Shown: positions 27,779 through 64,000 of the stretch, piece by piece
Numbering within the stretch: the stretch's first letter is position 1
Layout: every line of letters starts with the position of its first letter
Assembly: GCA_021819105.1 (NCBI GenBank)
Contig: JAKASK010000003.1
Coordinates: 62,001 to 126,000 of the forward strand
Origin: an archaeon
GTDB lineage: Archaea; Thermoproteota; Nitrososphaeria; Nitrososphaerales; Gagatemarchaeaceae
Length of the DNA: 64,000 bases
Reading direction: 5' to 3'
Position numbers and translations under genes: made by a program
Notes under the pieces: generated by a model
What the model saw: the letters and a program-made list of their open reading frames with translations, nothing else
What the model was told of the DNA's origin: nothing
Databases searched by the model: none

Positions 27779-28432
27779 TTAGTACGAGGTGCCCTCGGAT
27801 GACGTAGCCTCGGCGGACGGAAGGGATGTCGGGATTTCTGGGAACTTCTCGCGCATGCGAGTCTCCGCCACTGCGGAGGCCTCTGCAAGGATCTTCTCTG
27901 CGTCCTCGTTGGCCGCTTCGAAGTTCAGCGAGTACCCACCGACCGTCCCTGCGTCTACCAGGATGCTACTCAGCAAACCAGAGATCTCTCCGATCTCGCT
28001 CTCCGCCTCAGGCAGCACGCCCACCAAGCCTTGCTTGACGTTGCGTATCACTGCCATTGCGGGGGTCAGGGTGACGACGATGTCGCCCAGTTCTGTGATG
28101 GTGTTGAGTCTGAGCACTATCTGCTCGAGAGCGAGCTTGGCCTGGGTGACCATCTTGTTCATCTTCCTGATCTCGGCCAGCTCGTTTGCGAAGACAGACG
28201 CGTGCTGTGTGTCGTGTTTCTGTAGAGAGCTTACGACCTTTGCGAAGATCGAGTTGTCCCTCTCTCTGAGTTTTGTGGATGTGGAGTCGAGTTTGGCGAC
28301 TTGGACTTGGATTTGTCGGACTGCGAGGTCGAGCCTAGGCTTCAGGGGTCCGGGGTTCCTTACGGAATCCTTGACCCGAGTGCCGAGACTCTGGCTGTTT
28401 TGCTTTTCCCATTTACCTGCGAACGCACTCAT
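27779..28432 (-). CDS. ESCRT-III paralogue (CdvB1-like)
   Basis: A 217 aa Snf7/ESCRT-III core protein. Helix alpha1 is basic (K-P-R-L-D-L-A-V-R-Q-I-Q-V-Q-V-A-K-L), followed by F-A-N-E-L-A-E-I-R-K-M-N-K-M and I-V-L-R-L-N-T-I-T-E-L-G-D-I-V, which align with its neighbour CdvB. It lacks the winged helix and ends with a short P-T-S-L-P-S-A-E tail that may act as a MIM. It is likely a secondary polymer subunit acting with CdvB and CdvC. Its base composition is clearly less GC-rich than cdvB. Confidence 0.85.
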   Translation of the reverse strand: MSAFAGKWEKQNSQSLGTRVKDSVRNPGPLKPRLDLAVRQIQVQVAKLDSTSTKLRERDNSIFAKVVSSLQKHDTQHASVFANELAEIRKMNKMVTQAKLALEQIVLRLNTITELGDIVVTLTPAMAVIRNVKQGLVGVLPEAESEIGEISGLLSSILVDAGTVGGYSLNFEAANEDAEKILAEASAVAETRMREKFPEIPTSLPSAEATSSEGTSY

Positions 28433-49962: not shown

Positions 49963-50928
49963 ATGCAGGCCCAAGAGCTGGAAATCTGTCAGGAGTGCGC
50001 GTCTCCCCTCCTAGACTTGGAGGAGGAGCTGGTCTGCCCGAGCTGCGGGCTGGTGAAGGAGAAGTCGACGGTTGAGCCGGCGAAGATGGGAGACGGCAAG
50101 CTCCCTCTCTTTGGGAGGCAGCCGCTGGGGAGCTTCATGGGCGCGAGGAAGCCAAGCATCGAAGAAATGCGCTCGAAAGTCTCTGGGAACAGCACCAGCT
50201 ACGGTCGGATGAAGATGCTGTCCGACTTCGCCGCGAGGGAGGGGAGCTACGCAGACTGCGGCAGGCTCATCGAAAGGGTCGGAGAGAGGCTGTTCCTCCC
50301 CCGGGTGGTCATCCTCCAGGCTGCCACGATTTCAAAGAGGGTGACGCAGGCGCCGCACAGGGGGCGGCTGACCGTCGCTGAGGTGTCCGCCTATTCGCTG
50401 GTGGCGGCGTGCAAGATAGAAGGGGTCGCGTCGGCGAGCATCAGGGAGATCCTCGTCGCCTTCGCCGACCTCGGCAAGAGGGTCTCTTCGTCGGCCATAT
50501 TTCGTCTGGCCCTCGAGTCACCGGTCAGGACCTTCGCAAGGAGGCCCGAGGAGTACCTCCCCAGGGTCCTGGCCAGGCTTTCGATGAACCGGAGGCTCTC
50601 GGTGCGGCTCGCCAAGGACGGCGTCCCGTCGTCCGCCTACCTCGGAACGCTGCGCGGGCTCGCGATGGAGATCCTGGCGCGGTGCGACCAGGTGGCGCTC
50701 GAAGGGAAGCGGCCCTGCGCCCTCGCGGCTTCGGCCGTCTACTCGGCGGAGACGGTGCTCGCGGCCCAGGAGGCCAGGAGCCTCAGGGTCACCCAGAGGG
50801 AGTGCGCCGCCTGCGGTGACGCGGCGGAGTATACGGTCAGAGAGCAGTGCGCGGCTATCTTCGGGGGCCCGGCCGCCGCGCTCAGGTCCCAGCGTAGGCT
50901 GACCCTGGCTCCTCAAACTGCACGCTGA
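49963..50928 (+). CDS. tfb: Transcription factor B (TFIIB-like)
   Basis: A 321 aa general transcription factor. The N-terminal zinc ribbon is I-C-Q-E-C-A-S-P-L ... V-C-P-S-C-G-L-V, then a B-finger/linker region (K-L-P-L-F-G-R-Q-P-L-G-S-F) and two cyclin-like repeats (about 105-200 and 205-300). The linker is divergent from the canonical R-x-x-x-L-T-x-x-R form, so this may be one of several TFBs with its own promoter preference. ATG 49963 lies 26 nt after GATAT. Its 3' end overlaps the convergent pilus-locus gene by 47 nt. Confidence 0.8.
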   Translation: MQAQELEICQECASPLLDLEEELVCPSCGLVKEKSTVEPAKMGDGKLPLFGRQPLGSFMGARKPSIEEMRSKVSGNSTSYGRMKMLSDFAAREGSYADCGRLIERVGERLFLPRVVILQAATISKRVTQAPHRGRLTVAEVSAYSLVAACKIEGVASASIREILVAFADLGKRVSSSAIFRLALESPVRTFARRPEEYLPRVLARLSMNRRLSVRLAKDGVPSSAYLGTLRGLAMEILARCDQVALEGKRPCALAASAVYSAETVLAAQEARSLRVTQRECAACGDAAEYTVREQCAAIFGGPAAALRSQRRLTLAPQTAR

Positions 50929-51643
50929 AGCTCCCCCCTGGTCCCTGTATCCCCGTCTGCTCGAGGGTGACAAGGAAGTCGACCCTGCAGGATGCGCCGC
51001 CGGAAGTGGAGTAGCCGACCGCGAACTTGAACCCGCCAGACCTTGCCAGGGCCCCGGGCCCCTGTTCGGCCTCCTGGATGACGGCTCCGGCAGCTGCGGG
51101 GGTGCAGCCCGGCAGGGTGGACCCGTTGAGGGCCGCGCCGATGGCAGCCGCTGCGACCGCGCAGTCTGCTACCCCGCTCGCGAGATGGACCCCCAGGTGG
51201 GCGTAGTGGGTCTCGGATCGGTTGAAGGTAACCGCTGCGCCCGCGGAACCGGACCCGTTGTAGCGCAGAGCCAGGTCGAGGTCGCCCGCGACCGAACCGT
51301 TGTAGGGTCGGAGCGCGGAGAGGTTGTCGTCCACCCCCGTCTCTTGGACGAGGACGGCGTTCGAGGCGACGGTGAGGCCCCCCTCCTTCTGCAGGTCCCC
51401 CAGGGCCCCCACCCCCTGCGCCACGTCCGCCATGGCGGATGAGCAGACCAGCGGCTGGGAGGCGACGACTCCCTGGGCTCCGAGAAGGATGTCGACGCCT
51501 TCGGCCGCCATTAGGACGTGGAACCCATCGGCGAGGTAGTCTTCGCCGTCGGCGACGGAGTAGAGGGCAGCGCGCCCCTGGGCGGCCGAGTAGACGGCGA
51601 GGCCCGCTATCAGTATCACCGAGAACAGTATCGAAGCTGCCAT
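50882..51643 (-). CDS. Anchored protein of pilus locus, unknown
   Basis: A 253 aa protein with an N-terminal hydrophobic helix (M-A-A-S-I-L-F-S-V-I-L-I-A-G-L-A-V-Y) and a Gly/Ala/Ser-rich ectodomain with N-x-S/T sites and spaced cysteines. The helix resembles a pilin or pseudopilin signal. It is the last of five same-strand genes divergent from the secretion ATPase. I recognise no family. Its role as a minor pilin or adhesin is inferred from position only. Confidence 0.55.
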   Translation of the reverse strand: MAASILFSVILIAGLAVYSAAQGRAALYSVADGEDYLADGFHVLMAAEGVDILLGAQGVVASQPLVCSSAMADVAQGVGALGDLQKEGGLTVASNAVLVQETGVDDNLSALRPYNGSVAGDLDLALRYNGSGSAGAAVTFNRSETHYAHLGVHLASGVADCAVAAAAIGAALNGSTLPGCTPAAAGAVIQEAEQGPGALARSGGFKFAVGYSTSGGASCRVDFLVTLEQTGIQGPGGSFSVQFEEPGSAYAGT

Positions 51644-51651
51644 GGTGGCAC

Positions 51652-52014
51652 CTACGCCGCGGCGCCTGACCAAGCTACCAGAGTCACCTGCTTTGATGCA
51701 ACGGAGAGCGTCAACTCGACCGGAGTGGCGCCTGCCGGGGGAGGGAGCCCGCAGCTTTGAGGGCCTTCGATGGCCGAGATGTCGGCGGCCGGGCTTGAGG
51801 CGGCATAGGCTGCGGCGCAGACGTCGGGGAGGGGAGCGGAGAAGAGCCATGGGACCCCCTCCCTGTCCACGAAAGCCACCAGCGCGTCCCTCAGGGCAGA
51901 CTTGGTCCGGAGGCGGTCTGCTGCGAGGTCGGCCGCTCCGGGGCTCCACACCACCATCGCGGCGATGGCCGTCAAAGCCACCATCGCGGCAACTGCGATG
52001 TCCAGGTACCTCAT
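51652..52014 (-). CDS. Small anchored protein of pilus locus
   Basis: A 120 aa protein with an N-terminal helix (I-A-V-A-A-M-V-A-L-T-A-I-A-A-M-V-V-W) and a short ectodomain with two cysteines. Its ATGA start overlaps the stop of the 28-aa gene upstream, so it is translationally coupled. It is a pseudopilin candidate; no family is recognised. Confidence 0.55.
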   Translation of the reverse strand: MRYLDIAVAAMVALTAIAAMVVWSPGAADLAADRLRTKSALRDALVAFVDREGVPWLFSAPLPDVCAAAYAASSPAADISAIEGPQSCGLPPPAGATPVELTLSVASKQVTLVAWSGAAA

Positions 52015-52097
52015 GGTATCGGCAGCTCGGGGAGGAGCAGGGCCAGGGCGACCAGCGCAAGGCAGATGAGGACGGCGTACATCACGGCCACATCCAC
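52011..52097 (-). CDS. 28-aa single-helix membrane peptide
   Basis: A tiny gene coding for 28 residues that are almost wholly one transmembrane helix (V-M-Y-A-V-L-I-C-L-A-L-V-A-L-A-L-L-L-P-E-L). GTG 52097 starts it 13 nt after the neighbour's stop and its end overlaps the next start by 4 nt. The tight packing supports it as a real gene. Other in-frame starts (GTG 52091, ATG 52082) are possible. Confidence 0.45.
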   Translation of the reverse strand: MDVAVMYAVLICLALVALALLLPELPIP

Positions 52098-52110
52098 GTA
52101 GGTCTCGACT

Positions 52111-52488
52111 TCAGCCAGCCGGCACCACCGCAACCCTGTCCCCTGAGACATATGCGAGGTAGGCCACCGTCGGGTAGATGGTCTCGTCTGGGAGCTCCGC
52201 GACGGTGTGCGTCTCGACGAGCCCGCTCCCGTAGGAGCAGACGAGACTATGCTCTCCAATCAGTATCGGGTCCCCCGCCGGCGACGTGCCGAAGGAGAAT
52301 CTGGCGCTGACCCCGGGCCTCAGGGCGGATAGCACCGCCGAGACCCCGTCGAGGCTCCTGAGGTCGGCCCCCTCGCGAGAATCGCTGCTGACGGCCGAGA
52401 GTGCCGGGCTCAGGACGAGTAGCAGGGCGAAAGCCGCAACGATGTAGAGCCCCCACGAGTTCAGCGCGGCTATGGAAGACGCGGGCAT
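52111..52488 (-). CDS. Anchored protein of pilus locus, unknown
   Basis: A 125 aa protein with one N-terminal helix (W-G-L-Y-I-V-A-A-F-A-L-L-L-V-L-S-P-A-L) and a beta-rich ectodomain. It directly follows the next upstream gene (1 nt gap). No known domain. By position it is probably a structural component of the pilus-like system. Confidence 0.55.
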   Translation of the reverse strand: MPASSIAALNSWGLYIVAAFALLLVLSPALSAVSSDSREGADLRSLDGVSAVLSALRPGVSARFSFGTSPAGDPILIGEHSLVCSYGSGLVETHTVAELPDETIYPTVAYLAYVSGDRVAVVPAG

Positions 52489-52489
52489 C

Positions 52490-52855
52490 CTATGACACCG
52501 ACACCGTCAGTTGCTCGGCGGCGTACCTGAACCCCAGGGTGTGCGCCCCTCCCTGCATGTTCAACGCGAAGTCGCAGGTTGCGGCGACCGCCTCCTGCTG
52601 TGACCGGCTCCCAGAAGTGAAGCTCATGGTGCCTCCTCCGCACGAAAGGGTCGAGGGCGGGATTGTGACGACCCCTGCCGAACTCCCGTTCGCCATGGCT
52701 TCGTTCACCAGCCTGGTGATCGACGCCGACGCGAGTCCGAACTGGACCCCGGAGATGAAACCCGCGAATGACTCGTAGACGGCCACCGAGCCGGCCACGA
52801 GGAGAACAGACACCGCGAAGACGAGGCAGTACTCGAGTAGCTCCGCCATCACCAT
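52490..52855 (-). CDS. Pseudopilin-like protein of pilus locus
   Basis: A 121 aa protein starting with A-E-L-L-E-Y-C-L-V-F-A-V-S-V-L-L-V-A-G-S-V, which looks like a TadE/pilin-type helix with its conserved early Glu, followed by a small ectodomain with two cysteines. Promoter: minus-strand GTTAAAT at about 52873-52879, 24-30 nt before the tandem ATGs. First gene of the five-gene minus-strand operon. Confidence 0.6.
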   Translation of the reverse strand: MVMAELLEYCLVFAVSVLLVAGSVAVYESFAGFISGVQFGLASASITRLVNEAMANGSSAGVVTIPPSTLSCGGGTMSFTSGSRSQQEAVAATCDFALNMQGGAHTLGFRYAAEQLTVSVS

Positions 52856-52924
52856 GCAGGGCCCCTCTGCGATTTAACGCCCCACGTGGCGGCTTTTATC
52901 GAAAGCCCGCACTTCTGTCGAGAG

Positions 52925-54367
52925 TTGAAGGTTCGCTTCTCTGAGACGCTCCTCGGCCTCGTGAAGAAGAGGAAGAAGGAGCGAGAGCCTCAGCCGCTTC
53001 TGGTCGAGCTCCTGGAGCGGGTTTCGGACGGCGGAGGGTGGCAGGCGCGCTCATACCCATTCTGCTACAGGGTCTCGACCGTGGGCCCCGCACCGTTCTA
53101 CGAGGTCGGGTGCGAGCTCCTGCCGTCGGCGGTCGCGGCGCTGAGGTCGACGGTGCGCGATGTCTCCGAGGCCCTCGACCCTGGCGACGTTGAGCCTCTG
53201 ACTTTCGGGCGGCTCGTCGAGGTGCTGGTGCAGCAGTCGGCGGAGCAACTCGCCACCCATGGCCTGAAGAGCAGAGTGAGGGAGGTGTCCGAGCTCGCTG
53301 CCTACGAAGCCATCGGGCTTTCCCGCATACTCGCGCTGGCCAAGGACGAAATGGTGACCGAGTTCTTCGTCGACTCGGAGGCCACCTCGGTCTACCTCGA
53401 CCACGCTTCGGCCGGCAGGTGCGAGTCGGGCCTGGTCCTCACGCAGCGCGAGAGGGACGCCATCCAAACGCACGTCGACACCTTCAGCGGATACACCCTT
53501 GACTTCAGGACCCCGTCCCTGAAGAACGACCTCCCCATCGGCGGCGCGATCCTCAGGGTCTCACTCGACCTCGAGCCCCTGGCCGTGAACCGTTTCGCGC
53601 TTGACGTGAGGAGGCTCAACGTAGCCTCCCTGGGCCTGGTCCAGCTGATGGCGCTGGGCGTCCTGAGCGAAGAGGCTGCGGCCCTGCTGGTGGGCTGGAT
53701 CGAGGCGGGAGGGAACGTGACCGTCATCGGCGAGACGGGGACAGGGAAGACGACCCTCCTGAACGCACTCGACGAACAGGTGGACAGGAGGCTCAGGCGC
53801 CTCTACATCGAGGACGCCGTCGAGACCAGGGACCTCCTGGAGCGTGGGTATCATCAGCTGAAGGTGAAGGTCGACCCCTACGAGCGCGGAAAGGAGTCGG
53901 CCAGGACCAAGGAGTCTGAAATCGTGAAAGCTCTCCATCGCTCCCCGGACATCGTGATACTCAGCGAGATCCAGTCGGAGGAGCACAGCAGGGCGTTCTT
54001 CCAGGCGCTGGCCTCGGGGGCCAGAGGCATACAGACCTTCCATGCTTCGACGGTCGAACAGGCGGTGAGGCGATGGGTGAACCTCCACCGCATCTCGGAG
54101 CAGAGCCTCCTTGACCTTGGGCTGATCGTCCAGATGACCAGGCCTGACAGGCTGAAGCAGTCAAGGTACGTCCAGAGGATTTCCGCCGTGACCCAGGAGG
54201 GAGGGGCTCCTCGGATCAAGGAGCTCTTCATGCGCGACAGGGCGGGGAGCCTCGGGAGCGTGGCAGGGCCGGGGTGGCCGTCCCCGCCCGAAGGGTCCGA
54301 CCAGGCGAAGCTCAACGGGAAGGTCGCCCTCGCGGCTCAGAGGATCGGCAGGCTGGCGAGAAGGTGA
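52925..54367 (+). CDS. Type II/IV secretion (pilus) ATPase, CpaF/VirB11-like
   Basis: A 480 aa assembly ATPase. After an N-terminal helical region comes the motor: Walker A G-E-T-G-T-G-K-T-T-L-L, Asp box Y-I-E-D-A-V-E-T-R-D, Walker B I-V-I-L-S-E-I-Q and the His box F-H-A-S-T-V-E-Q-A. The H-T-H of many homologues is F-H-A here. It drives pilin polymerisation with the two membrane proteins downstream. TTG 52925 lies 26 nt after CTTTTATC at 52892-52899; GTG 52886 would precede that box. Its stop overlaps the next gene by 4 nt. Confidence 0.85.
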   Translation: MKVRFSETLLGLVKKRKKEREPQPLLVELLERVSDGGGWQARSYPFCYRVSTVGPAPFYEVGCELLPSAVAALRSTVRDVSEALDPGDVEPLTFGRLVEVLVQQSAEQLATHGLKSRVREVSELAAYEAIGLSRILALAKDEMVTEFFVDSEATSVYLDHASAGRCESGLVLTQRERDAIQTHVDTFSGYTLDFRTPSLKNDLPIGGAILRVSLDLEPLAVNRFALDVRRLNVASLGLVQLMALGVLSEEAAALLVGWIEAGGNVTVIGETGTGKTTLLNALDEQVDRRLRRLYIEDAVETRDLLERGYHQLKVKVDPYERGKESARTKESEIVKALHRSPDIVILSEIQSEEHSRAFFQALASGARGIQTFHASTVEQAVRRWVNLHRISEQSLLDLGLIVQMTRPDRLKQSRYVQRISAVTQEGGAPRIKELFMRDRAGSLGSVAGPGWPSPPEGSDQAKLNGKVALAAQRIGRLARR

Positions 54368-55062
54368 GGTTCTCCTCCCTGGAGCACTTCGGGCTCAGCG
54401 CGTGGCGGCTCGCCTGCGTCGGGATAGCTTCGGCCTCGGGAGGGTGGCTGCTCGGTGACCTCGTACTCGGGGGAGTGCTGGGGCAGGCGAAGCCGGGGAT
54501 CCTGCTGATAATCTCAGCCCTCGTGTTCTACCTGGTTGTCTCCGTCCCGAGGAGGATGTTGGACGGCCGGAGGGTCTCCGAGGCGAGAGAAGCGGTGCCG
54601 CTCTCCGCGTCGGCCAGGGCGTGCCTGGAGGTGACAGGGTCGAGGCCGAGGACCTTGATGATGGTCAGGCCAAGGGAGCCCTCCTTGGCCAGGTCGCTGG
54701 AGGCGGCCGCCAGGATGGTGCTGCTGGGGACCAGGGTCGAAGACGCCCTGGCGCACGCCGCGGAGGGCCTCGCGTCCTACTCCTCTGCGGCCACCCTGAG
54801 GAGCCTCGCGGTGCTCAGGCCTGAGGGGTTCGAGTCAGGGGACGAGGAGGCCAGGGGGCTCGCAGCTTCCGGCGACCTGAGCAGGGAGACCAAGGTCCCG
54901 ATGTTCATGACCGTCTGTTTCTTCGCGCCGATATTGACGTTGCTCTATGCGGTGTTCTCTCATTCATACAGTGCCGCGAGCATGTCGGAGCTGACGGCGC
55001 TCGAGTTCATCATAGTCGACCTGACCTACTACATGAGTTCGGCACGCGGGGGAGAAAGATGA
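54364..55062 (+). CDS. Pilus platform protein, N-terminal half (TadB/GspF-like)
   Basis: A 232 aa membrane protein with helices near residues 15-60 and 185-215 around a cytosolic helical region (A-A-A-R-M-V-L-L-G-T-R-V-E-D-A-L). It resembles one T2SSF/TadB-TadC unit. GTGA overlap with the ATPase stop and ATGA overlap with the next gene show tight coupling. It forms the inner-membrane platform that anchors the ATPase. Confidence 0.68.
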   Translation: MRFSSLEHFGLSAWRLACVGIASASGGWLLGDLVLGGVLGQAKPGILLIISALVFYLVVSVPRRMLDGRRVSEAREAVPLSASARACLEVTGSRPRTLMMVRPREPSLARSLEAAARMVLLGTRVEDALAHAAEGLASYSSAATLRSLAVLRPEGFESGDEEARGLAASGDLSRETKVPMFMTVCFFAPILTLLYAVFSHSYSAASMSELTALEFIIVDLTYYMSSARGGER

Positions 55063-55694
55063 ACCAGGCGGTATCGATGATCCTCTCCCTGAGGAGGGTC
55101 CTCGAGTCGGCGGGGGAGGGGTCCGGGATGTCTCGCTCGATAGTCCAGGAGCTGAGCGGGTCCGACGAACTGGGGAGAGAGGCGGCCAAGCTGCTCCTCC
55201 TCGGGAACCCAATCCGGTCGGCCATGAGGCCGATGCTCGACAGGGGCGCGGAGGAGGTGGCTCTGCTCGCGTCTCTAATCGTGGCGGCGCCCAAAAGCAG
55301 CGCCCCTGAAGTGGGGAGGAGCGGGAGCGCGGTTTCGACGACCCTCGAGCGCTGGGTGAAGGCGAAGGAGGGGAGGGCGCTGGAGCAGAAGGTGATGAGG
55401 TTCAGGAGCCTAGTGACCTCGGGAATCCTAGGGGCCGTCATGGGGATGGTGGCCACCCTCGGACCGCTGCTGGGGTCCCTGGGCGCAGGCGCAGGGCAGG
55501 GCCCCGACGCAGCGGCGCTGGTTTACGGAGCCGCGGCCATGACTGCGATTAGCTCGGGGATGCTCGGAGCCTACATGTCAGGAAGGGGGTTCGGCATCAA
55601 CGTGGCTGTGTCGGTGACGTCCTTCGCCGTAGTCTGCGCGGTCGCCTCTCCCCTGGCAGCCGTCCCCTCCTTCAACCTCTGGGGCGTTAAATAG
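55059..55694 (+). CDS. Pilus platform protein, C-terminal half (TadC/GspF-like)
   Basis: A 211 aa protein with a cytosolic helical region (E-L-G-R-E-A-A-K-L-L-L-L-G-N-P-I-R-S-A-M) and three hydrophobic helices toward the C-terminus. It looks like the second T2SSF unit, so the platform seems split over two genes as in Tad-type systems. It overlaps the preceding gene by 4 nt. Confidence 0.65.
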   Translation: MNQAVSMILSLRRVLESAGEGSGMSRSIVQELSGSDELGREAAKLLLLGNPIRSAMRPMLDRGAEEVALLASLIVAAPKSSAPEVGRSGSAVSTTLERWVKAKEGRALEQKVMRFRSLVTSGILGAVMGMVATLGPLLGSLGAGAGQGPDAAALVYGAAAMTAISSGMLGAYMSGRGFGINVAVSVTSFAVVCAVASPLAAVPSFNLWGVK

Positions 55695-55714
55695 AGAGAC
55701 CGACCTATACGCCC

Positions 55715-55921
55715 ATGAAGTCTCGCCTGAGGCCCTCCAGGAGGAAGGGGGCGCAGCTCATCGAAGAAGCCCTCCTGCTCTCTGTCGCCCTGGTCACGCT
55801 GTCGCTCCTGGTCGGGGGGATAGAGTCCATACTCAAGCAGAGTTCCACCTTCACTTCCGGCGTCTGGACCTCGATAACGAACTCGCTGAGCAGCATCTTC
55901 GGGTCGCTCTTCCACTGGTGA
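55715..55921 (+). CDS. Type IV prepilin
   Basis: A 68 aa pilin precursor. The class III signal is R-R-K-G-A-Q-L-I-E-E-A-L-L-L-S-V: cleavage after Gly by a prepilin peptidase would leave A-Q-L-I-E with Glu at +5, followed by a hydrophobic assembly helix. Only about 30 residues remain as the exposed tail, so this is a very small Flp/Tad-like pilin. It lies 20 nt after the platform gene and is probably the main fibre subunit. Confidence 0.72.
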   Translation: MKSRLRPSRRKGAQLIEEALLLSVALVTLSLLVGGIESILKQSSTFTSGVWTSITNSLSSIFGSLFHW

Positions 55922-56002: not shown

Positions 56003-56920
56003 ATGGGGATAGGGGACGGCAAGTACATGGTAGTCTCAGACGGCGCCAGGGTGAGGAGCATGGCGCTCTTCAGGGTGGGGGTGCCCGACGTCGCCGACGA
56101 CCCCAAGGTCGACTACTCGGCAGCCCTGAGGACGACCCTGCAGCAGCAGAGGATGAAGGGGCTCTTCGAGGGGCTCCGCAGGGCGGGGGTCCCGTTCATG
56201 TACGTGATGCTCATGGACCACCCCGGCGAAGCTGGGGACTCGCCCCCGGTGCTGGAGTTCGACCTCGTCGTCGGCACCTGGGTGGACATGAAGAAAAAGG
56301 AGGACAGCGCCCCGGTCCTCGAGCAGCGCGCTAGCGTCCTGTCGGCCACCCTGAGCGTCGCTCTCCCGACCGCGAAGGTGGTCAGGCTGTTGAGGAGGGA
56401 CCTTGCCGACTTCATGAAATCCGCCTTTCTTCCTGGCGGGAGGGCCCTCCCCCAGGCGGGTTCCCCGGCCGCCGCCGGGGCCCTCTGCACCTTCGATGAG
56501 ATGTCCCCGCTTGCGGCGGGGCTGGAGAGGACCCCGGACTTCTACATACCGAACGCCTCCGAGTCCGGCCAGGAGGGGATACTGATCGGGGCTGTGCGTT
56601 CGGCCGGGAGGGAGTTCCACGACTTCCGGCTCCAGATGGAAGACCTGAAGAGGCACGTCAGCGTCCTCGGGATGACCGGCTCCGGGAAGTCGACCACGAC
56701 CTCCCTGATCGTCAGGCAGGTGGCCGAGGCGGGACTCCCCACCCTTGTCCTGGACTGGCACAACGAATACGCCGCGGCTGTGACCGCCGCTGGAGGGAAG
56801 GTGGTCGCCCCCGGGAAGGACGAGTTTGCCGTCAACCCCCTAGAGGTGGGGCCCGGGGTGGACCCGGCCGAGCACATCGCCATGGTCTCTGACATATTCT
56901 CCGATGCCCGCCCCGCATGA
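56003..56920 (+). pseudogene. HerA-like ATPase, 3'-truncated
   Basis: The N-terminal half of a HerA/FtsK-type translocase: an N-terminal HAS-like barrel region, then Walker A L-G-M-T-G-S-G-K-S-T-T and D-W-H-N-E-Y-A, ending H-I-A-M-V-S-D-I-F-S before a stop. Full-length relatives continue with Walker B and a C-terminal helicase part, which is missing, so it appears truncated next to the recombinase. Coding-like sequence extends upstream to 55922 in this frame (W-K-L-R-P-Q-T-G-I-G-L-E-D) without ATG/GTG/TTG. GTG 55918, overlapping the pilin stop, is one base out of phase. Confidence 0.6.
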
Positions 56921-57017
56921 CTGCAAACCGCAAATCAGAGTGCGTCAAATCTGACTGCCATTATTGCAACTGTCAGCCAGGCTTGGCCGTTATATCCGCC
57001 GAGGGGGTGGTGTCCCG
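56921..57017. other. Junction between HerA remnant and recombinase; candidate att region
   Basis: About 100 AT-richer nt with repeated TGACTGC (around 56918 and 56952) and an ATCAGA/TCTGA inverted pair. Such a spot beside a recombinase gene and a truncated gene is a plausible integration scar, but a matching repeat at the far end was not found. Confidence 0.3.
56989..56997 (+). promoter_or_regulatory. TATA box of the recombinase gene
   Basis: GTTATATCC lies about 25 nt before the TTG at 57018, matching the leaderless pattern. Confidence 0.45.
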
Positions 57018-58118
57018 TTGAGCCCCCCCATCGTCTACGAGTCCCCGGAGTGGGCGAGGTTCGAGGCTGCGGTCCCGAACCCGGCCACCAGGAAGGAGTA
57101 CTTCCTCTGCATGAGGCACTTCCTCCAGCACGCAGGGGTCAACAACGTGGAGTTCGCCGAGGTGGCCAGGGGGGACCAGGGGAGGGCCGAGGACCTGGTC
57201 CAGGCGTACATAGCGCACCTGAAGGGGCGGGCGGAGAGGAGGGAGCTGGCACTGGGGTCGGTGAGGAACAGGGTCAAGCCTGTCAAGCTCTACTGCACGA
57301 TGAACAGGCTGAGGCTCGACTGGGACTACCTGTCCAGGACCCTCCCCAGGGGGAGGAGGTACGCCGACGACAGGGCCCCGACCAGGGAGGAGATCAGGAG
57401 GATACTGAACCTCTGCACGCTGAGGATGAAGGTCGCGGTCGAGATGATGGCGTCGGGGGGGATCAGGGTCGGGGCCTGGGACTACATGGGCGTCAGGGAC
57501 GTGGAGCCGGTGACGAGGGGGGAGGCGCTCCTGGCGGGACGGGTGACGGTGTACAGGGGGGAGCCGGAGCAGTACGTCTGCTTCGTGACCCCGGAGGCGT
57601 ACCAGGTCTTCTCCGAGTACATGGACTACCGGAGGGCCAACGGGGAGGACGTGGCGGCCGGGGCGCCCCTGATCAGGGACGAGTTCGCCGTCTCCCAGGG
57701 GAGGAAGGGGACCGCCTCGGTGGTGAAGAGGTTCCCCTCGAGCTTCGTCGAGAGGGAGCTCTGCAGGGTCCTGGGCAGGTCGGGGCTGAGGGCCGAGCGG
57801 AAGAGGAGGTACGACTTCAAGGCGGCCCACGGCTTCAGGAAGTGGTTCAAGACCCAGGCCGAGCAGGTGATGAAGCCAGCCAACGTGGAGGTGCTGATGG
57901 GGCACTCGATCGGGATCTCAGACTCGTACTACCGGCCCACCGAGAAGGAGCTCCTGGAGGACTACCTCAAGGCGGTCCCCCTGCTTTCGATAACCGAGTT
58001 CAGGGACGCCGGCGAGGCGGAGGAGAAGCTCAGGGCGGAATTCGAGGCGAGGCTCGCGAGACTGGAGGGGGAGGTGAGGGAGCATGTGCGGAGGCAAGCA
58101 GCAGCCGGAGCGCTGTGA
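57018..58118 (+). CDS. Tyrosine recombinase/integrase
   Basis: A 366 aa site-specific recombinase. The catalytic R-H-R-H-Y set is visible: R in S-G-G-I-R-V-G-A-W, H-G-F-R in A-A-H-G-F-R-K-W, G-H in L-M-G-H-S-I-G-I-S and Y in D-S-Y-Y-R-P-T. An N-terminal SAM-like core-binding domain (about residues 10-120) and a C-terminal acidic coiled coil (about 325-360) flank it. This resembles archaeal XerC-like integrases. TTG 57018 was chosen by the TATA box. It is intact and so probably active. Confidence 0.88.
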   Translation: MSPPIVYESPEWARFEAAVPNPATRKEYFLCMRHFLQHAGVNNVEFAEVARGDQGRAEDLVQAYIAHLKGRAERRELALGSVRNRVKPVKLYCTMNRLRLDWDYLSRTLPRGRRYADDRAPTREEIRRILNLCTLRMKVAVEMMASGGIRVGAWDYMGVRDVEPVTRGEALLAGRVTVYRGEPEQYVCFVTPEAYQVFSEYMDYRRANGEDVAAGAPLIRDEFAVSQGRKGTASVVKRFPSSFVERELCRVLGRSGLRAERKRRYDFKAAHGFRKWFKTQAEQVMKPANVEVLMGHSIGISDSYYRPTEKELLEDYLKAVPLLSITEFRDAGEAEEKLRAEFEARLARLEGEVREHVRRQAAAGAL

Positions 58119-58301
58119 GCTCGTCGGCCCACTTCTCCAGCTGCCTCCGGGGGACGGGGACGCACTCCTCTTCGGTCAAGGCTCTGGTCGCAGCAAGGAT
58201 GGGGCCGCCCATTTAACGGGGCTTCAGCCAGCCCGGGGACAGGGTCGGCACGGCGCAGCCGGGCAGGGCGGGAGGACCAGGAGGCGTGGCCGGGGCACAG
58301 G

Positions 58302-58358
58302 ATGCCCTACTACAAGCCGACTGTGGAGCACATGGAGGAGGAGTGCCTGAAGGCGTGG
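58302..58358 (+). other. Possible truncated gene remnant
   Basis: Starting at ATG 58302 the reading M-P-Y-Y-K-P-T-V-E-H-M-E-E-E-C-L-K-A-W looks like the beginning of a small protein that loses sense at the junction with the transsulfuration operon near 58358. It may mark the far edge of an inserted segment. Confidence 0.25.
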
Positions 58359-58359
58359 C

Positions 58360-59511
58360 CTAGCCCAGGGCCCTCTCTAGATCCGAGAGCAGGTCTTCTA
58401 TGTCTTCTATCCCGACGGAGAGCCTCACGAGGGAATCAGAGATGCCGAGCTTCTCCCTCTCGGTCCGAGGGACGCTCGCGTGCGTCATCGACGCCGGGTG
58501 TTCGACCAAGGACTCGACTCCCCCCAGGCTCTCCGCCAACGAAAAGACCTTGAACTTGCGGAGTGTCCGTTCCGTTTCACGCGCCCCTTCCATGAAGACG
58601 AAAGATAGCACTCCTCCTGGCCCCCTCATCTGGCGTGTCGCCAAGCTTCTCTGTGGGAACGAGCGAAGGCCGGGGAAGTTGACGCCCTTCACCTTGCTGT
58701 GACCCTCCAAGTATTCGGCTATCCTCTGCGCATTGTAGGCATGCCTTTCCATCCTTAGCTCCAAGGTCTTGATGCCCCTTGATACGAGGAAGCAATCAAA
58801 GGGCGAAAGGACGGCGCCGACTGAGTTCTGATTGAAGCGGACCTTCTTGTGCACATCGTCGTCAGAAAGCACAAGTGCGCCTCCCACGACATCGCTGTGC
58901 CCGCCCAAGTACTTGGTGGCGCTGTGGACGACGACGTCGGCGCCGAGCTCAAGCGGGTTCTGGAAGTATGGAGAAGCAAACGTGTTGTCGACCACAGTTA
59001 CCATGCCCTTCTCTTTTGCTATCTTTGCAATCCCTCTGATGTCACAGAGCTTCAAAAGAGGGTTCGTTGGAGATTCTAGCCAGACCATCCTCGTATTCTT
59101 CCTGATGGCTGCCTCCACCGCACTCGTCCTCCTAGCGTCCACGAAGTCGAAGTCCAGTCCGAACTTGAGTAACGTCTCTGTGAAGAGCCTCCTCGTCCCC
59201 CCGTACAGGTCGTCGAAGGCGATTACATGGTCACCTTTCTTCAACAAGGAAAGGCAGAGCGTGGCCTCAGCTGCCATCCCAGAGGAGAACGCCAGCGCGT
59301 GCTTGGCGCCTTCAAGCGACGCGAGCTTTTCCTCCAGGGCCCTTCTCGTGGGGTTGGAGGTTCTGGAATATTCGTAGCCCCCTGTGGGCCTCTTGACTTC
59401 TGCCCTTGCGAAGGTTGAAGAGACGTGGACGGGGACGACGACGTCGCCCGCTCCCCCCTCCTTCAGGTTGGGTTCTTCCCCCACGTGAACCGCTCGGGTG
59501 GCGAACCTCAA
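58360..59511 (-). CDS. Cystathionine gamma-lyase/synthase (PLP enzyme)
   Basis: A 383 aa Cys/Met-metabolism PLP enzyme. The PLP Lys is in H-S-A-T-K-Y-L-G-G-H-S-D, with E-Y-S-R-T-S-N-P-T-R near the N-terminus, H-A-L-A-F-S-S-G-M-A and E-S-P-T-N-P. Next to a cystathionine beta-synthase gene, it most likely acts as cystathionine gamma-lyase in reverse transsulfuration, giving cysteine; gamma-synthase cannot be excluded. TTG 59511 was chosen because it gives L-R-F-A-T-R-A-V-H and overlaps the stop of the methyltransferase gene (TTGA). Confidence 0.85.
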   Translation of the reverse strand: MRFATRAVHVGEEPNLKEGGAGDVVVPVHVSSTFARAEVKRPTGGYEYSRTSNPTRRALEEKLASLEGAKHALAFSSGMAAEATLCLSLLKKGDHVIAFDDLYGGTRRLFTETLLKFGLDFDFVDARRTSAVEAAIRKNTRMVWLESPTNPLLKLCDIRGIAKIAKEKGMVTVVDNTFASPYFQNPLELGADVVVHSATKYLGGHSDVVGGALVLSDDDVHKKVRFNQNSVGAVLSPFDCFLVSRGIKTLELRMERHAYNAQRIAEYLEGHSKVKGVNFPGLRSFPQRSLATRQMRGPGGVLSFVFMEGARETERTLRKFKVFSLAESLGGVESLVEHPASMTHASVPRTEREKLGISDSLVRLSVGIEDIEDLLSDLERALG

Positions 59512-60329
59512 ACCTGATCTCCCCGCCTCTTCTTGGCTATGATGAATATGGAACTCTCGGTGGTAAGTAGCCCCATACCGCAATTCCTTTCGAACTCTCG
59601 GAGGAGCTCATTACGGACTTCGTCCCTCTCCGCCATGGGGACCCCTTCGAGGTAACGCTCCCATGTGATTGCCTTGACCCTGTCAAGGCAGACCGCTGCG
59701 CTGAGCCTTTCCCTCAGGTTGAGCTCGAAATCCTTCTCGACCTCGAACCCTGCCGACTTCAGGGCCGGCAGTACCTCCTCTCTCCTCATCACCCTCAAAC
59801 CTACCATCTCGCTAATCCGCCGGCTACCGTCCTTCTCGCAGTAGCGGCTTACGACTCTGCGGAATGCTTCCCTCAACTCGCTGTACCTCGCCAGCGATGG
59901 GACCATGATGCCTAGCCTACCATCGTCTTTAAGCACCCTGCGGATTTCGGTGAAGCACCTATTCATGTCGGGGACCCAGTGCAAGAGGTAGGACGACACT
60001 ACCGCATCGAAGGCACTGTCGGGGAGATCTAGGCTCATGGCGTCCCCCCGCATGAACCTGAGGTTGCTAAGCTTGAGGCTGTGCGCCCGCTGGCTGGCCA
60101 GCCTTACCATGCTGTCCGAAAGGTCCACCCCTACGACTTCGCCGTCGTCGAGCAGCCTGGCAACGTGCGCAGAAAGGAGACCCGGACCGCTGCCGAGATC
60201 GAGCACCTTTTCCGACCCCTTGAAGTTCATCTCGTGAGCCAGCACTAGGAACTGGCATACCCTGCACGGGCTCACGAACCTGTCGTAGTCCTCCGCCGTC
60301 CTGTCGAACATGCTCTCGACGCCATTCAT
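59508..60329 (-). CDS. Class I SAM methyltransferase of cysteine operon
   Basis: A 273 aa Rossmann methyltransferase with motif I V-L-D-L-G-S-G-P-G-L-L-S and the usual D-S-A-F-D-A-V-V-S-S-Y-L-L-H-W. It is inserted between the two transsulfuration genes with 4-nt overlaps on both sides, so it should be produced with them. It might consume SAM to supply homocysteine via SAH, or modify a pathway intermediate. The real substrate is unknown. Confidence 0.78.
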   Translation of the reverse strand: MNGVESMFDRTAEDYDRFVSPCRVCQFLVLAHEMNFKGSEKVLDLGSGPGLLSAHVARLLDDGEVVGVDLSDSMVRLASQRAHSLKLSNLRFMRGDAMSLDLPDSAFDAVVSSYLLHWVPDMNRCFTEIRRVLKDDGRLGIMVPSLARYSELREAFRRVVSRYCEKDGSRRISEMVGLRVMRREEVLPALKSAGFEVEKDFELNLRERLSAAVCLDRVKAITWERYLEGVPMAERDEVRNELLREFERNCGMGLLTTESSIFIIAKKRRGDQV

Positions 60330-61789
60330 CTACTCTCATCGCCAATCAGGGAACGGTTCGCTTTGCCGAGGTAACTGACCACATCCGATGCTGTGATGAT
60401 GTCCTGGACCATGCCGTCGCCAATAACGACGACGGCACCATTCTCCTTTAAGAGCGAGTAAGGGTCTAGTAGGAAGTCTCCTCTGTCGACGGCGGGTAGC
60501 GGGTCCTCCATCACCTCACCCACCTTCTCGTCTAGGCTTGCCTCCTTCGACGCGAAGGCTTTCACGATCCTTAGTTCCCTCAAACAACCGACGTTCACCC
60601 CGCCCTGCAGAACTGGGAGCTGAGAGAAGCCATTACGCTTCATCAGCCGGATTGCCGTTCCTATGTCGTCTTGAGGCGATACCCACACGAGGGCGCGCGA
60701 ACTCTTGGATCCGATTATCTCGGATAGCGGTATCCCGACCTGGCCGGCTCCGATGTAACCGTGTTCTGTCATCCACTCGTCCGAATAGATACGGTCGACG
60801 TAGTTTCTTCCAGTATCGGGGAGGATGACGACCACCGTCTTGCCGACAGGGAGATCCTCGGCGACCTTCAGGGCTGCTACCGTCGCCGCACCGGAAGAGC
60901 CACCTGCGAAAATACCCTCCTCTTTGGCCAGCCTCCGCGCCATTAGAAAGGACTCTTTGTCGCCTACGGTGACGACTTCATCCACGACACCCAGGTCGAG
61001 CGTGGATGGCATGAAGTCTTCGCCAATCCCCTCCACGCTGTACACATGGGATTCTCTAGCTGTGCCTTCAAACGCATGATGGAAGATGGAACCCTCCGGG
61101 TCCACTCCGATGACCTTGATTCTCGGGTTCTTCTCCTTAAGGTAACGGGCGGTCCCTGTGATGGTCCCGCCTGTTCCCATGCCAGCGACGAAGACATCGA
61201 CCCTCCCCGCTGTCTGTTTCCATATCTCAGGGCCCGTGGAGCGATAATGAACATCAGGGTTGGCCGGGTTGGAATACTGGTTGAGCAAGAACGCGTTAGG
61301 TGTCTCTTGCGCTATCTTCTTGGCTAGACTGACATTGCCTGAAGGGTGGTCGTAAGGCACCGCTGTCGGGGTAACAATGACCTTCGCCCCGAGGGCGCGC
61401 AGTACGTCGATTTTTTCTCTGCTCATCTTGTCTGGGACGGTGAAGACCAAGCCGTAACCTTTGACTGCCGCAGCCAGCGCGAGACCGATGCCAGTGTTCC
61501 CCGAAGTCGGCTCAACGAGGGTGTAGCCGGGTCTGATTGCTCCTTCCCTCTCTGCGGCCTCGATCATGGATATCCCAATCCTGTCCTTGACGCTTCCTCC
61601 GGGGTTAAGGTATTCGAGCTTCGCGAAGACGCCGCATTTCAGGCCGGCTGCGACCTTCCTCACTTTGACCAGTGGGGTGTTGCCGATGAGCTGGAGGATA
61701 TTTTCAGCGGCGTCTACAGGACTAGGTTGACTAGGAAGCGTGCCGAGTGCCGAGTCTGGAACCGCGGAGTCCGAAGCAAATGCCGCCAC
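60326..61789 (-). CDS. Cystathionine beta-synthase with CBS domains
   Basis: A 487 aa enzyme joining serine and homocysteine to cystathionine. The PLP domain (about residues 25-345) has the PLP Lys in N-P-G-G-S-V-K-D-R, the substrate loop P-T-S-G-N-T-G-I-G-L and the phosphate loop G-M-G-T-G-G-T-I-T-G. Two CBS domains (about 360-485) follow, probably SAM-responsive. First gene of a three-gene operon, with GTG 61789 near the TATA-like GACTAAACC at 61808-61816. Its GC content is lower than that of the core genes. Confidence 0.85.
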   Translation of the reverse strand: MAAFASDSAVPDSALGTLPSQPSPVDAAENILQLIGNTPLVKVRKVAAGLKCGVFAKLEYLNPGGSVKDRIGISMIEAAEREGAIRPGYTLVEPTSGNTGIGLALAAAVKGYGLVFTVPDKMSREKIDVLRALGAKVIVTPTAVPYDHPSGNVSLAKKIAQETPNAFLLNQYSNPANPDVHYRSTGPEIWKQTAGRVDVFVAGMGTGGTITGTARYLKEKNPRIKVIGVDPEGSIFHHAFEGTARESHVYSVEGIGEDFMPSTLDLGVVDEVVTVGDKESFLMARRLAKEEGIFAGGSSGAATVAALKVAEDLPVGKTVVVILPDTGRNYVDRIYSDEWMTEHGYIGAGQVGIPLSEIIGSKSSRALVWVSPQDDIGTAIRLMKRNGFSQLPVLQGGVNVGCLRELRIVKAFASKEASLDEKVGEVMEDPLPAVDRGDFLLDPYSLLKENGAVVVIGDGMVQDIITASDVVSYLGKANRSLIGDESR

Positions 61790-61855
61790 CCACTTCTATT
61801 TCACGCAGGTTTAGTCTCCACAGGACTGGTATTAGTGCTTTCCGTCTTCCGGCTC

Positions 61856-62601
61856 GGCAGTGTAAACTTAAGCGGTATCACCTCCTAGGAATCCGATCAA
61901 TTCGCCAAACCTCATGCGCCTCCTTCTGGCATAGTGCATGTCAACGAACAAGCTGAGCCAATTCTTGACGTGGGCCAGATCGCACCCCTCCCTCATGCAG
62001 GGATAGTAATCGTCGAACTCTTCCACCCTGTCCTTCAGGTACTGGTTGGCCCTCTCCATCAGGCTCTTCTCGTATGGTGAGTGCAGCCTGTGCTCCAATC
62101 CCAGCGCCCTGCACGCCTCCGGATACCAGGTTCCTCCATCGGAATAGACGACGTGCTTGCCGTGCCTCTCGACAAGGCTCTTCAGGAAGAGTTCCGCTAC
62201 GATGATGTTCTGGTGTCTCGATAGGTACACGCCGAGGATGTATCTGTGCACCGGCTCCACAGCGACCCAGACCCACGCTTCGAACGATCCTACCTTCGCG
62301 TATGTCTCATCGACCAGGAAGGCCTGGACCCTCTTCACGTCGAATATCCGGTGAGGCTCATAGCGCTGCACCCATTGCCATACGGCCATGTCAGACCTTT
62401 TGACAAACGGGTCTAACGCACATGATACGCCCCTAAAACTTAGTCCCAGGAAGTACAGGTAGAGGCCGTACATAACGGCCTGGAGGGGTGTCCTCTCTCT
62501 TTGGAATTGGATCATAAGAGGGAGGACGGCCCTTCCACTCGATTCCTAGGAAGAAAAGACGGCTAGACAAACGACTCAATCATTGCTAAGTTTACACTGC
62601 C
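61856..62601 (-). mobile_element. IS6-family insertion sequence
   Basis: A 746-bp element bounded by a perfect 15-bp inverted repeat: GGCAGTGTAAACTTA at 61856-61870 and its complement TAAGTTTACACTGCC at 62587-62601. It holds one transposase gene. No obvious 8-bp target duplication flanks it. A further 11-bp inverted pair (61869-61879 and 62613-62623) lies inside on the left and outside on the right. Confidence 0.75.
61868..62515 (-). CDS. IS6-family DDE transposase
   Basis: A 215 aa transposase with the DDE triad in L-V-D-E-T-Y-A-K-V, V-Y-S-D-G-G-T-W-Y and L-M-E-R-A-N-Q-Y-L-K. An N-terminal helical DNA-binding part (F-R-G-V-S-C-A-L-D-P) precedes the RNase H-like core. The frame is intact, so the element may still be mobile. 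Its stop lies within the left inverted repeat. Confidence 0.85.
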   Translation of the reverse strand: MIQFQRERTPLQAVMYGLYLYFLGLSFRGVSCALDPFVKRSDMAVWQWVQRYEPHRIFDVKRVQAFLVDETYAKVGSFEAWVWVAVEPVHRYILGVYLSRHQNIIVAELFLKSLVERHGKHVVYSDGGTWYPEACRALGLEHRLHSPYEKSLMERANQYLKDRVEEFDDYYPCMREGCDLAHVKNWLSLFVDMHYARRRRMRFGELIGFLGGDTA

Positions 62602-62782
62602 AGCCAGGCGGCGATACCGCTTATTCCCGTGATGGTTCGTTGTTTGTCACGTCACCTCTTGTAGTGATTCCAAAGGATATACCTGCTTTTGATAGTCTGT
62701 CCCCATGAGCTCTACCGCCGTCGTCACCGTCGTCCGCCTTCTGTCCTCCTCCCCTGTTCGCTCGCTCAATCCCTGTCATCAT

Positions 62783-64000
62783 CTAGCCCATCACCATTCC
62801 GAATGAGAACAGGCCCATCATGTTCGCCAGGCTCTCCCTCACCTTTACCCCCCTGACCGTGAAGACCGAGTCCTTGATCGCTGCGAGGATGCTCTTTCCC
62901 GCGGCGGTATCTGTCCTCTGGTGCGCTACCCTCACGGCGTACTTCAGCCTCCAGTTACCTCCCTCCGCGCAGTTGGACGTCACGTGACCGTCGAAGTCAC
63001 CATCCTTATCGAAATATTCAGGGTGTCCCTTCCTCAGCTCTTCCAGCGTTGAACCGAGAACCTCCTGGTACCTCGCCCTGGCGTACTTTTTGACCTCGTT
63101 GAGCTTCTCCTCCACGATTCCACGGGCCTTCTCCTTCTCCTCTGGCTTCGCCTCCTTCGCCTCCTTCACCTCCTCCCTCATCTCCTGGAACTTCTTGTCG
63201 TGCTTGAGCTCGTTCCTCGTCTTGTGGACCGGATCGAGCACGTGGTCCTTCACCTGGCTGTAATTGAAGGAGCCGTCGGTCATGTTGAATGACGTCCCTT
63301 CGAGCGCCTTGAACAGGGTGTCGGCGAGCATCTGGTTGAACGACCCCGAGGTGCATATCAGTGACGCGTAAGCATCAGCACCAAGGAGATAGGAGAGCGC
63401 CAGCGTGAACGATTCTGGGAACGAGGTCTTCCCGTCGTCGCCGTTGACGACCATGTCGCCCTTCGTTCCCCTGTGCACGACACGTTTCTTGCCTTCGAGT
63501 ATCTCGTCCATGATCTTCTTCACAGCTCCCTTCTTCCTCGGGTAGGTCTCGTCCGTCAGCGATTCGAGGCTCACCTGTGATGGTAGCTTCTCATTCAACT
63601 CTCGAGCGTTGTCGACTCCGAATAGGATCTTGAGCATGTTTATCGCGTAAAGCCCGTCCCCCTGCGCCGGAACGAGTGGCGCGAGCTGCTTCGCCCTCTC
63701 CGCGAAGAGCCTCACGTAATCGAGTATCGCGTCCGTGCTCACCTGAATCCCGAAGTTCGTGAGCATCCTCTCGGCGGCGTATGCGGGGTGCTCCATCGCG
63801 AGAGACAGCGCGATATCGACTATCGGGCCTCCGTACATCGCACCTTTGTAGAATGGGCCTTGGGAGGTGTACGTTCCGCCGCAGTCGCGGCAGATGTATT
63901 TCTGCAGCAGCACTCTCACGTCAACGAAGTTACCTTTTGGGGAGATGAGCTTGGCGAACAACGGGTCGTCATGCCCGTTCTTCACGCAGTTGCCGCTCCC
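62783..64000 (-). CDS. Transposase, N-terminus beyond window edge
   Basis: At least 405 aa, open to the edge of the window. The visible start has zinc-ribbon cysteines (C-G-S-G-N-C-style end and Y-I-C-R-D-C-G-G-T-Y), then a DDE-like core with D in L-T-D-E-T-Y-P-R-K-K, D in N-M-T-D-G-S-F-N and E in N-C-A-E-G-G-N-W-R-L-K-Y. A charged Lys/Glu coiled region lies in between. The IS family is uncertain. An ATG/GTG at 63985 is probably internal. Confidence 0.7.
   Translation of the reverse strand, partial: GSGNCVKNGHDDPLFAKLISPKGNFVDVRVLLQKYICRDCGGTYTSQGPFYKGAMYGGPIVDIALSLAMEHPAYAAERMLTNFGIQVSTDAILDYVRLFAERAKQLAPLVPAQGDGLYAINMLKILFGVDNARELNEKLPSQVSLESLTDETYPRKKGAVKKIMDEILEGKKRVVHRGTKGDMVVNGDDGKTSFPESFTLALSYLLGADAYASLICTSGSFNQMLADTLFKALEGTSFNMTDGSFNYSQVKDHVLDPVHKTRNELKHDKKFQEMREEVKEAKEAKPEEKEKARGIVEEKLNEVKKYARARYQEVLGSTLEELRKGHPEYFDKDGDFDGHVTSNCAEGGNWRLKYAVRVAHQRTDTAAGKSILAAIKDSVFTVRGVKVRESLANMMGLFSFGMVMG

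Follow-up and report, generated by a model that had tools for sequence, protein, structure and literature searches.

A TFB-linked mini-pilus locus with a CedD-like translocase gene in Gagatemarchaeaceae and other Thermoproteota

A compact, divergent cluster of pilus-like genes lies within a 64,000-nucleotide stretch of DNA from a member of the archaeal family Gagatemarchaeaceae (Thermoproteota; assembly GCA_021819105.1, contig JAKASK010000003.1, positions 62,001 to 126,000 of the forward strand). This stretch, referred to below as the window, is part of contig C1 of genome G000 (913,976 bases, 65% complete), and the cluster is best described as a TFB-linked mini-pilus locus with a CedD-like translocase. 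Judging from sequence comparisons, we give about even odds (roughly 0.5) that its products form a filament of the type-IV-pilus kind working with a CedD-like DNA translocase, the probable purpose being DNA import. The initial annotation had read the cluster as a pilus locus and made no mention of DNA transport, which is suggested because a CedD-like gene adjoins the pilus genes.

The locus and its CedD-like translocase gene

All nine genes are open across 50882-55921, with the secretion ATPase, a probable split platform and a pilin on the plus strand and five anchored proteins on the minus strand. The proposal of a compact, divergent nine-gene pilus locus with a mini-pilin is upheld, as is the TFB gene said to converge on it. 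The locus had been closed at 55921, one gene too early, and the CedD-like gene was left out. Read downward from 52855, the minus-strand order is E, D, C, B, A; on the plus strand the ATPase is followed by P1, P2, the pilin of 68 amino acids (aa) and then a truncated gene of the HerA superfamily. The features are:

49963-50928, plus strand: TFB paralogue (divergent, TFIIB-like), 321 aa, converging on A
50882-51673, minus strand: A, 263 aa, TTG start, MVRRRG-type N-terminus, the largest anchored protein, putative tip or minor pilin
51652-52014, minus strand: B, 120 aa, N-terminal hydrophobic stretch, invariant Cys pair
52011-52133, minus strand: C, very short membrane peptide of uncertain start (TTG, 40 aa; GTG at 52097, 28 aa)
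52111-52488, minus strand: D, 125-aa anchored protein (MPASS...)
52490-52855, minus strand: E, 121 aa, apparently leaderless pilin-like protein (M-x-E-x-x-E-Y)
52886-54367, plus strand: secretion ATPase (VirB11/FlaI superfamily), 493 aa, T2SSE match
54364-55062, plus strand: P1, probable platform half, 232 aa, profile-profile match to T2SSF
55059-55694, plus strand: P2, putative second platform half, 211 aa
55715-55921, plus strand: 68-aa mini-pilin (cleavage after RRKG would leave about 56 aa), G|AQLIEEA
56003-56920, plus strand: CedD-like DNA translocase, N-terminal 305 residues, interrupted
56906-64000, strand not assigned: integrated element (left part) that interrupts the CedD-like gene, beginning with a recombinase-like gene (56964-58118)

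The statement that most of these genes overlap by 4 nucleotides (nt) is accurate for three junctions, C/B (52011-52014), ATPase/P1 (54364-54367) and P1/P2 (55059-55062), but not as a generalisation: A and B overlap by 22 nt and C and D by 23 nt, both figures hinging on a TTG start, and gaps of 1 nt and 20 nt separate E from D and P2 from the pilin. TFB and A, which converge, share 47 nt at their 3' ends.

The gene at 56003-56920 specifies an ATPase of the HerA superfamily that reaches about 550 aa at full length in relatives. Full-length relatives match the CedD model in 22 of 22 cases and the HerA models in all 22 as well, with a best E-value of 1.3e-56 for CedD versus 9.5e-20 for HerA. For one member, L039, CedD is the top model (9.2e-53 versus 3.2e-17 for HerA) with the ATPase domain alone aligned; the HerA models NF040819 and NF040937 give 59 of 970 and 62 of 800 bits, under their cut-offs. 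In the four distant module members scanned, CedD again ranks first. One of these proteins, L184, aligns with all but the ends of the CedD model (positions 13-525 of 527, E=4.7e-61), and its N-terminus is strongly hydrophobic, like the layout of transmembrane (TM) segment, N-terminal domain and ATPase given for CedD in passages of PMC11868833. In a quick tree the module translocases group together (support 90); CedD with its relatives (98) stands apart from them, as do eight of nine presumed HerA proteins, which we labelled as such from low CedD scores; the ninth, L241, is a long branch placed elsewhere. An ordinary HerA-NurA repair gene is disfavoured by both the scores and the tree, no search for nurA neighbours having been made.

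Two PADLOC models, HerA and mad8, match the translocase (8.4e-18 and 7.7e-17 for L039; 5.9e-23 and 1.1e-21 for L184). That the locus defends against mobile elements by means of a HerA-type motor is nonetheless barely credible. CedD scores far better for both proteins, with HerA and mad8 so far below it that a defence system was rejected, and PADLOC was blank for P1, P2, A, B, D and E and gave weak ATPase-domain matches only for the secretion ATPase (C and the pilin were not scanned).

The VirB4, TraC and TraD models match the CedD-like ATPase weakly, which would favour DNA export or a conjugation-like transfer from cell to cell over uptake of free DNA. We regard this as quite improbable. CedD, the nearest family, is required for import and not for export: according to passages of PMC11868833, deletion of cedD in Saccharolobus abolishes the former and not the latter. 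No relaxase-like gene was noticed in the locus, no search having been aimed at relaxases, and the secretion ATPase had zero matches at 1e-20 in 72,556 plasmid records. A plasmid-borne system was rejected on the last of these grounds.

Orthologues of the secretion ATPase are found at 53-100% identity in 31 family genomes, after which identity drops to 22-33% among the matches listed, and gene order is the same in the loci of family genomes. Several of the 31 family loci are truncated at a contig end. A, B, D and E each occur in 30 of the 31, and P1 and P2 each in 29; the pilin was recovered from 28, the CedD-like gene from 27 and C from 16. Across 46 family genomes the ATPase occurs in 31, the CedD-like gene in 30 and both in 29. 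One genome, G003 (96% complete), provides a clean empty site, in which the whole block from TFB to the CedD-like gene is absent between the usual flanks. The flank genes (deoxyhypusine-synthase-like and adenylate-kinase-like, by eye) stand 29 bases apart there, and the genes that come next (MsrA-like, 320-aa and S9-peptidase-like) are those seen at occupied loci. Because the block is absent jointly, TFB and the translocase are probably part of the unit. In G041 a flank, a TFB-like frame and a translocase fragment are left, a decayed remnant; in G025 the locus is missing beside the flank gene and the far side is rearranged.

The linkage extends well beyond the family. In a sample of 398 genomes of Thermoproteota, the ATPase subfamily (E<1e-50, weaker matches left out) was found in 60, belonging to 23 families, and a CedD match (E<=1e-35) lies co-directionally downstream, at 1.9-3.1 kb, in 34 of the 60 (11 families) and on another contig in 8. 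Forty distant loci were compared as well, chosen non-randomly, 20 by CedD match and 20 by ATPase match; the count of 34 in 60 is free of that choice. Seven of the CedD-chosen loci are without the module ATPase in the stretch compared, and 11 of the ATPase-chosen loci are without a CedD match, with 2 having CedD on another contig. The 33 distant loci with the ATPase include a pilin in 31 cases and a translocase in 24.

The TFB paralogue, too, is tightly linked to the ATPase. Its matches to Pfam TFIIB (E=0.0021) and the zinc ribbon (E=0.0048) are both under the curated cut-off, and the counts that follow use a profile built from pattern-selected seeds (module TFBs). TFB lies upstream of the ATPase, within <=3.7 kb, in 58 of 64 loci (27 of the 31 from the family and 31 of the 33 distant ones), on the same strand as the ATPase in 55 of the 58; the six loci without it have <=2.3 kb of upstream sequence. 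It was found near none of 8 loci of other type IV pilus (T4P)-type ATPases. Passages of PMC9905601 state, citing other work, that in Sulfolobales a TFB paralogue regulates the Ced, Ups and HerA operons jointly.

Pilus components and the divergent anchored proteins

Judged by its ATPase, the locus belongs to the type IV filament superfamily: the protein matches T2SSE at E=2.5e-19 (69.6 bits against a cut-off of 24.9). The initial annotation had gone further and called the system Tad-like, which as a statement of membership we reject. The TadA-family model gives the ATPase 68.2 bits against a cut-off of 373.15, the archaellum model scores slightly higher (71 bits), and the Tad partners TadE/F/G, TadZ and RcpA have no match at E<=1 among ten window proteins in Pfam and NCBIfam.

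A quick ATPase tree separates 37 module rows (9 from the family, 26 of the 33 distant loci and two resembling T4P subclade 4D, discussed below) from 11 other T4P-type ATPases with a Shimodaira-Hasegawa-like approximate likelihood-ratio (SH-aLRT) support of 100. Midpoint rooting draws L184, L188 and L191 on the side of the other ATPases, the branch that separates the 37 still having support 100, and long branches were flagged, L227 and L213 among them. The label "other" was set by us: L228 and L230 have genes resembling those for TadC and pilins, three of the set come from G000, and the neighbours of six (L224-L226, L231-L233) are not listed. G000 itself has three more loci with a secretion ATPase and a T2SSF gene (G000:C10:25905-29989, 51203-55122 and 182114-184308), so several other pilus-like systems may coexist in this genome.

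Neither P1 nor P2 of the window has a match at the curated cut-off in Pfam or NCBIfam. Profile-profile comparison pairs P1 with T2SSF at a probability of 80% (E=1.4e-5). Among 27 P2 sequences one matches T2SSF in Pfam (E=0.008), and scans with P1 and P2 otherwise return scattered noise.

The mini-pilin is the best-kept small protein of the locus, at 60-84% identity to the window copy; A, B, D and E diverge faster than the pilin across the family. An alignment of 24 sequences has invariant Q, L, E, E and terminal W, and [LIVM]EE[GA] is kept in 31 of 32 distant pilin frames, which were found with the pilin profile itself. The protein has no match at the curated cut-off in Pfam or NCBIfam, and a PDB profile search with it gave nothing credible. 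A prepilin peptidase scores above the cut-off in 3 of 9 genomes, in one of them inside the locus: this is the leader peptidase (PF01478, E=9.8e-11) in the divergent cluster of the distant locus L203.

The five divergent proteins had been described as small, as lacking a known family and as possible minor pilins or tip proteins. "Small" does not suit A, with its 263 aa. The absence of a known family stands: A, B, D and E have zero matches at the curated cut-off in Pfam or NCBIfam, and the lowest sub-cut-off match of the five is that of C to MrpF (E=0.013, 16.3 of 23.3 bits). Nothing at the curated cut-off makes them homologues of an unrelated secretion or enzyme system.

The minor-pilin proposal finds support in E. 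Its AlphaFold2 (AF2) model (predicted local distance difference test, pLDDT, 87.6) has a helix at 2-56 followed by 7 strands, a layout that resembles type IV pilins, and its profile retrieves only two PDB sequences at E<1, both type IV pilins (1oqw PilA and 8tum, aligned in register; the two E-values are 0.041 and 0.17). A Glu, a Tyr and a Cys pair are invariant in 26 sequences. The invariant Glu aligns with Glu5 of mature PilA and is residue 6 in most E homologues (MxExxEY), and for this reason E looks like a leaderless pilin; we infer that its mature form would arise by loss of the first Met alone. VIA-align lists an archaellin over residues 1-49 of E with Z=2.5, within noise.

A is compatible with the same proposal. 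Its AF2 model (pLDDT 91.7) has a 67-residue N-terminal helix (5-71) followed by an alpha/beta domain, and four Cys are invariant in 25 aligned sequences. The N-terminus is of a basic-G/A type, its RRxG/A start resembling an archaeal prepilin leader but without Glu5, a residue that tip pseudopilins also lack. B has invariant C66, C88 and W115 (25 aligned sequences). For D, 24 sequences were aligned; in 4 of the 33 distant loci the D profile picks up a weak match ahead of the ATPase, encoded on the other strand. Searching the PDB with the profiles of A, B and D returned nothing credible. A comparable role for B, C and D is inferred from position plus one N-terminal hydrophobic stretch. C had been called as a protein of 28 aa, which is probably too short: a TTG at 52133 gives 40 aa, and because an EVET-like stretch is conserved upstream of the GTG (in 13 of 19 rows, the window row included), a length of 35-40 aa fits better. 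By sequence, D is recovered in 4 of the 33 distant loci, A in 2, and B, C and E in none; small anchored genes stand at the same place in five of six distant loci read gene by gene, L205 having none.

Reduced forms, interrupted copies and the surface-pilus alternative

There are also loci that hold less than the full set. L227 and L229 consist only of TFB, which stands beside both, the ATPase and one membrane protein, with Rpb8-, Lsm- and thermosome-like neighbours (by eye). The two fit the description of T4P subclade 4D in PMC4858521 and are likely the same thing. Their ATPases group with that of the module locus L213 (support 98, long branches), and because of the long branches the joining of L227 with L213 is unsure. 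Subclade 4D may be a reduced form of the fuller module. Where CedD-like matches fade, L212 and L215 have a gene pair of 130 aa and about 370 aa in the translocase position, matched by the translocase profile at E=0.017 and 9.3e-5, perhaps a degraded translocase.

For the reduced subclade 4D with its TFIIB gene, the authors of that census proposed a non-pilus function, for example one linked to transcription (PMC4858521). Carried over to the present locus, their suggestion would agree with the tight TFB linkage. We consider it very unlikely here, as 28 of the 31 family loci and 31 of the 33 distant ones encode a prepilin-like protein and a leader peptidase lies inside one locus (L203).

Several copies of the translocase gene are interrupted. 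In G000 the CedD-like frame ends after residue 305, and its C-terminal half is on contig C5 (G000:C5:94484-95260). The halves stand 91 kb apart in G022 (G022:C3:467704-559174), and in G027 the N-half is followed by a recombinase-like gene that reaches the contig end; the split falls at the same codons (SDIFS) in all three genomes. In G023 the halves are 78 kb apart and the site, likewise conserved, is another one, at LDWH codons (G023:C55:79950-158371). Both junctions have 6-8 bases in common in G000, G022 and G023 (by eye). Among the 30 family genomes with a CedD-like gene, both halves were found in 3, the N-half only in G027 and fragments in G041. For the G023 recombinase-like gene there is a weak Phage_integrase match (6e-4); that of the window has no such match and is 34% identical to the G023 copy. 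Mobile elements that disrupt bacterial competence genes are described in passages of PMC4774983.

The G022 element (L249, L114) includes a TraD/TraG-like ATPase (PF02534, 1.9e-07), a UvrD helicase and T2SSF-type genes, and on account of these may bear pilus or transfer genes of its own. The left part of the window's element has cystathionine gamma- and beta-synthase-like genes (by eye) and transposase-like frames at 58360-61789. Elsewhere in the window, at 25224-28432, there is an ESCRT/Cdv-like set by eye (a Vps4-like ATPase with an MIT-type N-terminus and two Snf7-like genes).

An ordinary surface pilus, serving adhesion, aggregation or surface sensing, has evidence of its own. The CedD-like gene would then be a neighbour retained by operon inertia, or a DNA repair gene. 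L207-L210 (two families) have such a core, with TFB, the ATPase, two platform-like genes and a pilin, and neither A-E nor a translocase was seen there. A CedD match at 1e-35 is also absent in 18 of the 60 genomes with the ATPase, G000 being counted among the 18 because its gene is split. On the other side stand the ATPase-CedD linkage, seen in 34 of the 60 genomes and across 11 families, a translocase closer to CedD than to HerA, and the joint absence in G003. On balance we find the surface pilus unlikely.

The two observations that favour a surface pilus weigh at the same time against a filament coupled to DNA transport, as do several others. The reduced forms (L207-L210, L227, L229) count against an obligate link between pilus and translocase. 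The CedD (NF053655) score of L039 is 179.7 of 600 bits, far under the curated cut-off and with only the ATPase domain matched; that cut-off was passed by 0 of 250 genomes of the order and 1 of 14 controls. ComEC (PF03772) was found in 0 of 40 genomes by a search that gave a match in 10 of 14 controls, each of the ten a bacterium, and no membrane channel was identified for the locus, CedA not having been sought. On the pilus side, the profile comparison of P2 with T2SSF is not significant (3.8%), the prepilin peptidase match in G000 is weak (E=0.004, under cut-off), and no leader peptidase was matched in G016, which is 100% complete and carries the locus. Foldseek and VIA-align gave no convincing PDB fold for A or E (best VIA Z 7.1, for the C-terminal part of A, and 3.7 for E), and a missing fold match does not prove a new fold. 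Finally, insertion into the CedD-like gene can reflect merely a convenient conserved site.

A possible machine and its relation to known systems

If the pilus and the translocase do work together, the block of TFB, A-E, ATPase, P1, P2, mini-pilin and CedD-like ATPase would constitute one chromosomal machine of Thermoproteota. The ATPase would drive the split P1/P2 platform and so polymerise the mini-pilin, which, once cut after its basic leader, could form a thin, almost all-helical filament. A-E might serve as the initiating, tip and anchoring complex, partly disulphide-bonded, and the CedD-like ring translocase at the membrane would move DNA, most likely inward, together with the pilus. The local TFB paralogue would turn the gene set on.

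A wider picture can be drawn, and we offer it tentatively, as somewhat unlikely in its entirety. The locus would be an ancient, self-contained DNA-uptake machine of Thermoproteota, uniting a pilus, a CedD-like translocase and a dedicated TFB, where Sulfolobales have separate Ups, Ced and TFB3; the "pilin-less" 4D would be its reduced remnant, four of the anchored proteins would be leaderless pilins, and large mobile elements would silence the machine by insertion in the translocase gene. Such insertions are a possible archaeal parallel to the elements that disable bacterial competence genes, and the locus may offer an answer to the published open question on subclade 4D. A conserved locus of pilus and translocase also provides a short gene list for deletion tests.

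In the open-access literature (subscription papers, preprints and supplements lying outside the scope), no description of this locus was found, and for the phylum the searches aimed at DNA uptake turned up only the Ced and Ted systems of hyperthermophiles. Tad/Flp pili have a small pilin, a VirB11-like ATPase and two platform proteins. The present locus resembles them in these parts, its two platform proteins being putative, and differs by its TadA score and the lack of any Tad-specific partner.

The passages of PMC4858521 that bear on the matter include TFIIB homologues among the genes of T4P loci; in its main text HerA occurs twice, both times only as the name of a superfamily. Subclade 4D, from Thermoproteales, has in common with the present locus a secretion ATPase, a protein with 4-5 TM segments and a TFIIB gene; it was reported without a pilin, whereas the fuller module has the mini-pilin, A-E and the translocase (PMC4858521). 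In Methanococcus maripaludis an archaeal T4P is needed for natural transformation and there is no ComEC, according to passages of PMC10133366, which call the transporter that moves DNA in naturally competent archaea unknown and ComEC not identified. Those passages name no CedD-like gene.

The locus also resembles the Ced, Ups and TFB systems of Sulfolobales, with which it has in common a T4P (secretion ATPase, platform and pilins), a CedD-class translocase and a TFB paralogue, which in Sulfolobales is reported to co-regulate the others, as described in passages of PMC11868833, PMC9905601 and PMC5817253. In those same accounts the locus numbers of the Sulfolobales genes are far apart, and the Ced system has CedA, CedA1 and CedB among its parts. 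The genes described here, in contrast, form a single divergent locus, with a translocase that the quick tree places outside the Ced clade.

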